DNA of 10,862 nucleotides from Cyanobacteriota bacterium. GTDB taxonomy: Bacteria; Cyanobacteriota; Cyanobacteriia; PCC-6307; Cyanobiaceae. Every line of letters begins with the position of its first letter. Positions within the stretch are counted from its first letter, which is position 1. This document shows positions 6,070 through 10,507 of the stretch, piece by piece. Position numbers and translations under genes: made by a program. Below the pieces are notes generated by a model. It saw nothing but the letters and a program-made list of their open reading frames with translations, searched no databases and was not told the DNA's origin. The DNA lies in NCBI GenBank assembly GCA_947463165.1, contig CANHSW010000042.1:1-10862 (forward strand), in the 5' to 3' direction.

Positions 6070-6262
6070 CTCATTGGCTGCGGATCCTCCACTAGCTGAC
6101 CATGCTCCAGGTGCCAAAAGCCAGCGTTAGCTGCATCCCCCCACCAAAACCGCCAGCCCCACACCAACTCAAGCGCCCTGGGCGGCCACTGAACAGCACA
6201 GCCCTGGCGAGGAGCAGGGGCAGGTGGCACATACCGCTGCTATCTAATCGTCACCGAACAAG

Positions 6263-6360
6263 CAGGGGGTGACTTGCAGGGGGGACATCTTGCAGCAGGG
6301 GGGGGGGTTACATCGGGGTGATTTTGCAGAGGGGGAAGTATGCAGCGGGATAATTTCGCA
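6263..6360. repeat. Degenerate tandem array of six 16-bp G-rich units
   Basis: Six head-to-tail units, each ending in (T)GCA: CAGGGGGTGACTTGCA (6263), GGGGGGACATCTTGCA (6279), an 18-bp variant containing a run of ten G (6295-6312), TCGGGGTGATTTTGCA (6313), GAGGGGGAAGTATGCA (6329) and GCGGGATAATTTCGCA (6345). The approximate consensus is a GGGG block, a short A/T-rich middle and TTGCA. All spacings are 16 bp except the third unit, which is 18. The period is not a multiple of three, so it is not a protein repeat. The five G-runs on one strand could also form a long-loop G-quadruplex. The function is unknown; regular binding-site arrays of this kind occur at the ends of some transposons, but no transposase is present here. 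Confidence 0.8.
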
Positions 6361-6530
6361 ACAAATGAAGCCAAATACTAGGATATCGAACAGCCCTTTG
6401 GGGCGATGCACCGAGGAACATACCGTGCCCAGCGGCCATAAAAACAACCGCTTAATGAAAGGCACCAGGGAGCTCACCTTGTTCAGTGGCTACGCAAGCA
6501 GCCCTAGCAATTCACCCAGGCTTACCTATC

Positions 6531-6605
6531 ATCCAGCGGCGCAACCGATACAGCAGCGCTACGGATATAACGGTGGCACTGATCCAGGGGCGCAACTGAT
6601 ACAGC
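6531..6605. repeat. Pair of 24-bp direct repeats
   Basis: The 24-bp sequence starting ATCCAGCGGCGCAAC at 6531-6554 recurs at 6582-6605 with two mismatches, 51 bp apart. A shorter piece (CGGTGGCACTG, 6571-6581) also recurs just after the second copy as CCGTGGCACTG (6605-6615). This looks like a decayed duplication of about 51 bp with a small deletion in the second copy. It ends just upstream of the start of the next gene, so it may lie in that gene's promoter or leader. Confidence 0.75.
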
Positions 6606-6638
6606 CGTGGCACTGGTAAGAGCACCCGCCTCGTCCCC

Positions 6639-7040
6639 TTGTCTACCCGCGCCGTTTATAGCTTCATCGGTTTTCCATCAGCTAATTTTCCATCAGCTGA
6701 TGGAAAATTAGCTGAAGAGTTCCACTATTACCTTCACCATGATGGCTATCCCAGCGGTGCGGCCTGGCGTTTTGCGGCAGCCCTGCGGCAAAGCGGCACT
6801 GCCTCTGCTTTTCTTGGCGCCTTCCTGAGCAGCCAGCCCCAGGCAGAAGCACTGGCCAGGGTGGAGCAGGCCGCCGACGCCGAATACTGCTACCGCTTGC
6901 AGCTAATGTCCAGCGCCGATCCGCAGCTGCAGGTGCAGTGCTGGCGGCGCATCCCAGGTGGGGGCAGCTGGCATTGCCACTGCGGGCCGATGGCGCTGGC
7001 GGCGTTCATTCAGCGGTTTCCACCTGAAGATCAGCATTAA
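6639..7040 (+). CDS. Small uncharacterised protein of the 'STRA...DGYPSGA' type
   Basis: The 133-residue product starts at TTG 6639 (an in-frame stop at 6597-6599 leaves no ATG or GTG option). The start MSTRAVYSF followed by FHYYLHHDGYPSGAAWRFAAAL matches, from memory, a family of ~130-residue proteins seen in bacteria and phages that open with M(S/A)TRA.Y.F and carry a (H/W)DGYP.GA motif. Their function is unknown to me. The conserved STRA right after the TTG supports this start. Between the two motifs sits the peptide FPSANFPSADGKLAE, which is encoded by a 15-bp repeat and palindrome (listed separately) and looks like an in-frame insertion into the family fold. The C-terminal part has WRRIPGGGSWHCHCGPMAL. 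No Shine-Dalgarno is visible. The gene sits alone in a repeat-dense islet, which suggests accessory DNA. Confidence 0.65.
   Translation: MSTRAVYSFIGFPSANFPSADGKLAEEFHYYLHHDGYPSGAAWRFAAALRQSGTASAFLGAFLSSQPQAEALARVEQAADAEYCYRLQLMSSADPQLQVQCWRRIPGGGSWHCHCGPMALAAFIQRFPPEDQH
6671..6715. repeat. In-frame 15-bp repeats with a 38-bp perfect palindrome
   Basis: Three 15-bp blocks lie end to end: TTTTCCATCAGCTAA (6671-6685), TTTTCCATCAGCTGA (6686-6700) and TGGAAAATTAGCTGA (6701-6715). Bases 6678-6715 are a perfect inverted repeat with no loop, centred between 6696 and 6697: CAGCTAATTTTCCATCAG on the left arm is the exact complement of the right arm. The block is a multiple of three and is read as FPSANFPSADGKLAE inside the DGYP-family protein. 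It would form a cruciform in DNA or a strong hairpin in RNA. Confidence 0.9.
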
Positions 7041-9007: not shown

Positions 9008-10507
9008 ATGAGCCAATTTGTGAGTCACCAATCCCTGCCGCCGATCGCTGGCTCTGAAGCCGAAATTCTGGCCTTGATGCAACAGGCCGGCCCGTTGTTT
9101 CTGCCGCGCACCAATCTCCACCTGGATCAGATCCGCTCTGGCTTTGCCTGTGCGCTCCACATGCACCAGCCCACAATTCCAGCCGGCGCGCAGGGAGAAC
9201 TGATCTCCCACCTGCAGTACATGCTGGAGCACCCCGGCGAAGGCGATAACCACAATGCCGAACCATTTGCCCAGTGCTACAGGCGCCTGGCCAAGATCAT
9301 TCCCCAGCTGATTCAGGAAGGCTGCAATCCCCGGATCATGCTGGATTATTCTGGCAATCTGCTCTGGGGTGTTGAGCAGATGGGTCGCCACGACATTCTC
9401 GATGCCCTGAAATTCCTCGCCTGTGATTCCTCCATGCAACCGCATGTGGAATGGCTGGGCAGCTTCTGGAGCCACGCTGTAGCCCCCTCCACGCCGATTC
9501 CCGATCTAAAGCTGCAGATCCTGGCCTGGCAGCACCAGTTCGCGGCCCTATTTGGCCGAGAAGCCCTGCAACGGGTGAAGGGGTTCTCGCCACCGGAAAT
9601 GCACCTACCAAATCACCCCGACACCCTCTATGCCTTAGTGAAGGCTCTGCAAGAGTGTGGCTACCGCTGGCTGCTGGTGCAGGAGCACAGCGTCGAAAAT
9701 TTTGATGGTTCCAGCCTGCGCCAGGAGCAGAAGTTCATCCCCCAGCAGCTCGTGGCCCGCAGCTCCAACGGCGAGGAGGCCACCATCTTGGCGTTGATCA
9801 AAACCCAGGGTTCCGATACCAAGCTGGTGGGTCAGATGCAGCCCTACTACGAGGCCCTGGGGCTGGGCCGCCAAACCCTGGGCGACCGCATGATTCCGTC
9901 ATTGGTGGCGCAGATTGCCGACGGCGAGAACGGCGGCGTGATGATGAATGAGTTTCCGCCTGCCTACATCCAGGCCCATCGCCGCATTGCGAACCAGGCA
10001 GGCGACAGCAACGCCGCAATGGCAACCAACGACACGGTGGCAAGTAATGAAACGGTGGCGATCAACGGTACGGAATACCTGGAGCTGCTGGAGGCTGCCG
10101 GGGTGCAAGACAGTGACTACCCGCAGATTCAGGCGGTGCAGCAACATAAACTCTGGCAACAGGTGGGCAGCCAGCCCAGCGCTGAATCCGTGCAGGCGGC
10201 GATCGCCCAGCTCAAGGCCAGCGATTCCAGCTTCTCGATGGCCGGCGCCTCCTGGACCAACAACCTCAGCTGGGTGGAGGGCTACGCCAACGTGCTGGAG
10301 CCAATGAACCAGCTCAGTGCCCGGTTTCACCAGGTATTTGACCCCCTGGTGGCCCAGGATCCAAGGGTAACCAGCAGCCGCCACTATCAAGAAGCACTGC
10401 TATACCTGCTGCTGCTGGAAACCAGTTGCTTCCGCTACTGGGGGCAAGGCACCTGGACCGATTACGCCAGCGAGATCCACAGGCGTGGCATAGCCGCGAT
10501 CGGCTAG
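9008..10507 (+). CDS. Glycoside hydrolase family 57 protein
   Basis: The 499-residue protein starts at ATG 9008. The first GH57 conserved region is ALHMHQP (51-55 for HMHQP), preceded by LPRTNLHLDQIRSGFAC. GFSPPEMHLPNHP (about 192-204) corresponds to the region with the catalytic glutamate (Glu 197), and IADGENGGVMMNEFP (303-317) to the region with the catalytic aspartate (Asp 305). Family enzymes are retaining alpha-glucanases (alpha-amylase, 4-alpha-glucanotransferase, branching or pullulanase types) acting on glycogen-like glucans; the precise activity cannot be told from these motifs. The length is within the range of the shorter cyanobacterial GH57 proteins. There is no signal peptide, so a cytosolic role is likely. 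Residues ~329-355 form an Asn/Thr/Ala-rich insertion built partly from a hexapeptide repeat (listed separately). No strong ribosome site is seen. Its leader contains overlapping inverted repeats and a hairpin lies just after the stop codon. Confidence 0.9.
   Translation: MSQFVSHQSLPPIAGSEAEILALMQQAGPLFLPRTNLHLDQIRSGFACALHMHQPTIPAGAQGELISHLQYMLEHPGEGDNHNAEPFAQCYRRLAKIIPQLIQEGCNPRIMLDYSGNLLWGVEQMGRHDILDALKFLACDSSMQPHVEWLGSFWSHAVAPSTPIPDLKLQILAWQHQFAALFGREALQRVKGFSPPEMHLPNHPDTLYALVKALQECGYRWLLVQEHSVENFDGSSLRQEQKFIPQQLVARSSNGEEATILALIKTQGSDTKLVGQMQPYYEALGLGRQTLGDRMIPSLVAQIADGENGGVMMNEFPPAYIQAHRRIANQAGDSNAAMATNDTVASNETVAINGTEYLELLEAAGVQDSDYPQIQAVQQHKLWQQVGSQPSAESVQAAIAQLKASDSSFSMAGASWTNNLSWVEGYANVLEPMNQLSARFHQVFDPLVAQDPRVTSSRHYQEALLYLLLLETSCFRYWGQGTWTDYASEIHRRGIAAIG
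10028..10081 (+). repeat. 18-bp in-frame repeat in the GH57 gene
   Basis: Three six-codon units read NDTVAS, NETVAI and NGTEYL (residues 341-358), with ACGGTGGC recurring 18 bp apart at 10034-10041 and 10052-10059. The third unit is already diverging. It sits in a low-complexity linker right after the catalytic-aspartate region and is probably a surface loop lengthened by tandem duplication. Confidence 0.6.
10198..10207. repeat. HIP1 palindrome
   Basis: GGCGATCGCC, the extended form of the highly iterated palindrome GCGATCGC that is over-represented in many cyanobacterial genomes. It lies inside the GH57 gene. It supports a cyanobacterial source but is only a single copy. Confidence 0.7.

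Follow-up and report, generated by a model that had tools for sequence, protein, structure and literature searches.

The window, as the whole 10,862-base contig analysed here is termed, comes from a freshwater-type cyanobacterium whose draft genome, 77.66% complete, totals 2.27 Mb across 332 contigs. One of its genes is a short open reading frame (ORF) of an uncharacterised picocyanobacterial protein family, and within this ORF lies a perfect palindrome: the 38 bp at 6678-6715 are their own reverse complement, with arms of 19 bp and zero loop. The features of the locus are outlined below.

6639..7040, forward strand: host ORF, TTG start, 133 amino acids, uncharacterised picocyanobacterial family.
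6671..6685, forward strand: Unit 1, forward; linker TTTTCCA at 6671-6677 and hinge TCAGCTAA at 6678-6685.
6686..6700, forward strand: Unit 2, forward; linker TTTTCCA at 6686-6692 and hinge TCAGCTGA at 6693-6700.
6701..6715, reverse strand: Unit 3, reversed; linker TGGAAAA at 6701-6707 and hinge TTAGCTGA at 6708-6715.
6678..6715, no strand: perfect loopless palindrome of 38 bp, its own reverse complement.
6686-6707: 22-bp core.
6684..6713, forward strand: 30-bp in-frame insertion relative to the empty site of the same-genus genome G002, codons 16-25; one of several equivalent placements.

No other loopless palindrome with arms of at least 7 bp is present in the window. The longest loopless arm reached 11 bp across 300 first-order Markov windows, 11 bp in 359,694 bases of the window's own genome and 12 bp in one Markov copy of that genome sample; arms of 19 bp therefore place the palindrome far beyond chance, and the feature is real. 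It is embedded in three adjoining 15-bp units, each consisting of an 8-bp hinge and a linker of 7 bp, either TTTTCCA or, in reverse complement, TGGAAAA. The hinge TCAGCTGA is, on inspection of its letters, self-complementary over all 8 bp, and 6701-6715 is the exact reverse complement of 6678-6692, variant hinge base included. The open frame is translated across the repeat as GFPSANFPSADGKLAEEFHYYLHHDGYP; a forward unit encodes FPSAD and a reversed unit SADGK, both are open in the frame that is used, and each has a stop in one other frame. Because the hinge is self-complementary and the unit is 15 bp long, units can be added in either direction with the reading frame unchanged. The array has the form of a coding minisatellite (tandem units of 10-60 bp) in which one of the three units is reversed, and it is absent from the output of Tandem Repeats Finder at score 30. 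The predicted RNA energy of the 38-nt hairpin is -24.8 kcal/mol, and such a structure might influence early translation.

The state of the gene without the insert is seen in G002, where GGT TTT CCA TCA GCT is followed by CAA GAG; the flanks of the two genomes can be aligned closely, and the three longest alignments are 94-95% identical. A unit of the 15-bp type is already native coding sequence in G002, with TTTTCCATCAGCT present in its empty site, and Unit 1 occupies the position of this native unit. Since the gene natively encodes the first FPSA unit, the insertion amounts to 30 bp, or 10 residues, and not to 15 residues. Its placement is ambiguous within the repeat, as 6680-6709 and 6684-6713 leave an identical empty site. 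Outside the window's genome the spacing is unexpanded in all 35 readable locus rows, which comprise 16 of the 29 loci of one list and 19 of the 24 of another (the remaining 18 are unmatched by the reading pattern, and the lists overlap, with some genomes, G002 at least, in both). The window gene therefore carries an in-frame insertion that nearly all relatives examined lack, as is the case for palindromic elements of the Rickettsia type. These results bear out much of the original prediction. The loopless 38-bp inverted repeat that it described in the ORF stands far above the Markov controls; the three 15-bp blocks from 6671 to 6715 are present as claimed, the third being a reversed unit; and the two motifs that it expected to lie close together do so in nearly all homologues examined, which are without the addition at this place. 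The addition of 15 residues in frame holds as to frame and is corrected as to size, to 10 residues and 30 bp against G002, and the homologue alignment proposed as a check on the 15 residues agrees, in that the addition is lacking in nearly all homologues examined and the first five of the 15 residues are native.

Relatives of the host protein provide a series of length alleles. Database searches recovered 281 homologous proteins, and among the 120 listed three are expanded besides that of the window: P0009 by five residues (SADGK), P0002 by 10 (SADGK twice) and P0001 by 15 (SADFL, SADFP and SADRK). These alleles are known at the protein level, and their unit structure is back-translated. They differ by whole five-residue units and not by one fixed element, and additions of 0, 5, 10 and 15 residues occur in a single well supported clade that comprises 11 rows, which is the behaviour of a coding VNTR. 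Searches with the P0001 and P0002 arrays as query found no further array of FPSAD/SADGK-type units. Four distant extra matches were also read, and in one of them, P0122, the same place is occupied by a longer stretch of unrelated sequence; variation of the loop thus extends to the wider family.

The residues that follow the array divide these proteins in a different way. E-E-F is found in the window and in unexpanded P0003, whereas Q-E-C is found in P0001, P0002 and P0009 as well as in unexpanded P0004, P0006, P0008 and G002; these flanks hint that the array of the window and those of P0001, P0002 and P0009 may have expanded separately, or may reflect exchange. On a tree built from the rest of the protein, the expanded label needs four changes (shuffled labels need a mean of 3.8), and the starred branches force only one change of this label. 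The same tree pairs P0003 (E-E-F) with G002 (Q-E-C), such that gene body and flank disagree. As judged from the protein tree, more than one origin of the expansion does not appear to be required.

Members of the family are found in 35 of the 197 genomes searched, own genome included, and many of them are distant. The host protein has no match in Pfam or NCBIfam, and its predicted model, with a mean pLDDT of 83, has no PDB match by Foldseek at E <= 0.001. The added residues 16-25 are modelled as a low-confidence loop between the strands formed by residues 5-10 and 28-32; mean pLDDT is 61 for residues 11-20 and 68 for residues 21-30, and is under 50 at 17-20. Over 122 codons compared between the window and G002, the host gene differs nonsynonymously at 18 and synonymously at 5; the corresponding counts for three flanking genes are 13/33, 11/39 and 27/31 (Fisher P = 5e-5 versus all three combined and 0.013 versus the closest one). 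From this single genome pair, which is a small basis, NG86 dN/dS is approximately 0.97 in the host gene versus 0.11, 0.08 and 0.24 in the three neighbours. These values fit relaxed or diversifying selection on the host gene, under which such insertions would be easier to keep, and the added loop may be either tolerated or selected.

The array is best explained as a locally born, mixed-orientation intragenic minisatellite, made by slippage and by template switching at the palindromic hinge, and we consider this explanation very probable. The gene would natively have carried one TTTTCCATCAGCTGA-like unit. Tandem slippage would have duplicated this 15-bp unit, and a G-to-A change would have followed in the first hinge. 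A replicating strand with the self-complementary hinge TCAGCTGA at its 3' end would then have crossed to the opposite strand, copied a single unit in reverse and finally re-paired at AGCTGA. Such a strand switch would generate the third block and the perfect palindrome together, and would carry the hinge variant to the other arm. The path of duplication, base change and reverse-complement copying from hinge to hinge reproduces the window gene letter for letter, and Unit 3 is an exact reverse-complement copy of nearby sequence (6701-6715 versus 6678-6692), as is characteristic of template switching. Quasipalindrome mutation has reportedly also been studied in Escherichia coli, in the QP study (PMC7202029). 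We infer a replication strand switch as the cause from established work on quasipalindromes, as set out in excerpts of two papers (PMC8604942, PMC8794818).

Variants shared between the two arms are consistent with copying of this kind. In the window, the TAA/TTA pair, seen in the protein as S-A-N with K-L-A, is exactly complementary in the DNA. P0001 may be a second case: its FL/RK pair consists, at the protein level, of a P-to-L change in one forward unit and a G-to-R change in the reversed unit. A single base change from the native codons allows only CTA for Leu and, from GGA, either AGA or CGA for Arg; the pair would be complementary if Arg is AGA, one of the two single-base routes. With 45 sites and three changes at each, the chance that a second random single-base change in the window would fall on the matching partner is approximately 1 in 130. 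The two forward hinges of P0001, with a 7-nt linker between them, would form a natural snap-back primer, and P0001 suits a simple fold-back better than does the window, where the switch requires a zero-loop (inter-strand) step. Against slippage and template switching is the need for an extra contraction or duplication in P0009 and P0002.

Alternative origins account for parts of this evidence. The original prediction likened the insert, in principle, to the palindromic elements of Rickettsia and proposed a mobile palindromic repeat on condition that it recurs elsewhere in the genome, and this part of it has to be given up. A mobile palindromic element, whether of the Rickettsia palindromic element (RPE), REP or cyanobacterial small dispersed repeat type, draws some support from the insertion itself, since the 30 bp can be read as a perfect palindrome of 26 bp together with a duplicated 4-bp AGCT, and from one partial Y1-transposase match in the genome (an IS200/RAYT-type domain on contig C313 at 749-943, for which no link to the palindrome locus was seen). 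However, the 22-bp core is present in one copy in the source genome, the outcome that the original prediction had named as refuting it, and in place of multiple dispersed copies the only full match in this 77.66% complete draft is the window itself; in a scan of 300 genomes drawn from a larger family, none of the 299 others has the core at up to two mismatches. At the same tolerance, the 15-bp unit is found elsewhere in the genome as six lone copies, with two mismatches each and on six contigs, and its backwards control pattern has one match. Viral contigs yielded neither an exact match to the core nor a relative of the host protein, and searches of phages and plasmids gave no match to the 105-base region. 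The 38-bp palindrome and the 30-bp insertion are also far from the length of RPEs (about 105-146 bp, with terminal inverted repeats). Furthermore, the palindrome is built from 15 bp already held by the empty-site gene, over 13-15 bp its arm corresponds to host-gene sequence at the insertion point, and relatives with 5, 10 and 15 added residues have their units in different orders. The genome, family, viral (exact core), phage and plasmid searches led us to reject a mobile element as a candidate, and we rate it as highly improbable.

An origin by plain tandem slippage alone, in which point mutation produced the reversed unit, is extremely improbable: direct tandem arrays are common in the genome and the window array itself includes two direct copies among its three blocks, but the third is an exact 15-bp reverse complement that includes the variant hinge base, and reversed-unit peptides recur in P0002, P0009 and P0001. 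Site-specific inversion, in which TCAGCTGA hinges would be the recognition sites of an invertase and flipping of the 7-bp linkers would give a phase-variable peptide, would explain why the hinges are palindromic and the linkers occur in both orientations. We find it barely credible, since the number of units varies as well as their orientation, a 7-bp segment is far below the range that known invertases handle to our knowledge, and no recombinase family match was found in the six neighbouring ORFs scanned; ORF 9008-10504 has no family match. That the palindrome is an artefact, created during assembly of the draft contig or during amplification, is very unlikely. The draft is incomplete (332 contigs, 77.66% complete) and snap-back by polymerases in vitro can create palindromes, but the insertion is exactly 30 bp, in frame and free of stops, and at the same place in-frame arrays of these units are carried by three homologue clusters that are listed under other sources (ena, jgi, lgn). 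Slippage and template switching, the explanation that we prefer, could also serve a function: self-complementary hinges at a 15-bp spacing might be a selected diversity generator for the loop of a fast-evolving, possibly interaction-facing protein. We regard such selection as unlikely; if true, the array would grow, shrink and reverse its units in any combination while still in frame, and would offer a recombinase-free and retroelement-free route to local protein diversification.

Short tandem arrays are abundant in the window's genome. A 360-kb sample (contigs C1-C20, with the nine longest cut at 20 kb) contains 140 tandem arrays with a period of 10-60 and a score of at least 50, which corresponds to 38.9 arrays per 100 kb versus 1.9 in third-order Markov sequence. 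The commonest period is 15 bp (30 of the 140 arrays), in a sample where minisatellites of about 12-24 bp abound. Samples of 20-60 kb from seven relatives, which are small and unmatched for content, have 10.0-38.5 arrays per 100 kb, and strong arrays (score of at least 80) number 14.7 per 100 kb in the window's genome versus 0-6.1 in these relatives. The top relative on both measures is the same-genus G002; G001, also of the same genus, is not high (15.6 and 2.2 per 100 kb). Units in reverse-complement orientation lie near 25 of 285 tandem arrays, and those of a control that was reversed but not complemented near 30 of 285; this test, which allowed up to two mismatches and in which short units therefore match by chance, detected no enrichment. 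Flipped units are accordingly not seen as a genome-wide habit, and mixed orientation is not a general property of these arrays; here, the unit ends in a palindrome. On contig C277, a 6.6-copy direct array of GCTGAGCTGATGGCT is present at 1439-1537 upstream of an ORF that we take to encode a prolyl-tRNA synthetase. This 15-bp array shares AGCTGATGG with the window unit, and by eye it contains only direct units.

Repeats inside or between genes have been described in several systems. The small dispersed repeats of cyanobacteria are, as their name indicates, dispersed. In Saccharomyces cerevisiae, the passages on template switching in PMC8604942 describe substitutions on the arms and spacer inversions that change 2-5 bp, and quasipalindrome template-switch mutation is treated in part of PMC8794818. 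In common with the mutations in these passages, the window locus would show reverse-complement copying between nearby inverted repeats and arm homogenisation, together with spacer inversion, amino-acid change and recurrent events; unlike the yeast events described there, it adds whole 15-bp units, of five residues each, and has self-complementary hinges. RPEs, as summarised in PMC2229807, are 105-146 bp long and are present in 19 reading frames as well as in intergenic DNA. They resemble the window palindrome as in-frame palindromic insertions that are tolerated in a protein, but the latter has 38 bp, occurs once in its genome and is derived from the host gene. PARCEL units, according to an extract of PMC2996958, comprise 75 nt encoding 25 amphipathic residues and are found in many ORFs, with horizontal spread suggested. 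Tandem coding repeats, dyad-symmetric DNA and variable copy number are shared with PARCEL; the window unit is not a 25-residue amphipathic repeat, has 15 nt and five residues, and is confined to a single site in one gene family. The mitochondrial genes of Nematomorpha contain coding inverted repeats of up to 284 bp with both arms in conserved regions, in the account excerpted from PMC6649704; these are likewise perfect inverted repeats inside translated genes, although the window has a 15-bp array and is not mitochondrial. Cyanobacterial small dispersed repeats (Elhai et al. 2008, as cited in PMC3116915) and HIP1, which according to a portion of PMC4390886 is found at high frequency in genomes, are also short repeated cyanobacterial DNA, HIP1 being palindromic, but the window array is confined to a single locus.

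The window array works like known quasipalindrome mutation and does not belong with the mobile coding palindromes; we see in it a clear example from nature and not a novel type of element. Its value lies in separating two easily confused origins of coding palindromes, the mobile insert and local template switching, in a bacterium where the empty site can be compared with alleles of several lengths and with the variants that the arms share. A palindromic hinge, as this locus further illustrates, lets a minisatellite gain units in both orientations with the frame intact, and the genome, with its many 15-bp arrays, is one in which such mutation can be studied. Among the titles and abstract openings listed by searches of one library, none concerned the window locus or a minisatellite-rich genome of the genus.

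Repeated DNA is found elsewhere in the window. The intergenic DNA upstream of the host ORF has degenerate repeats at 6244-6370 and 6534-6615, with TTGCAG/GGGG motifs visible by eye and a 17-bp array, and it differs from G002 by length differences of 35 bp and 153 bp. At the right end of the window, 10590-10862 matches three separate places on G002 contig C38 (1083-2304) and another on C34, which points to a repeated segment.
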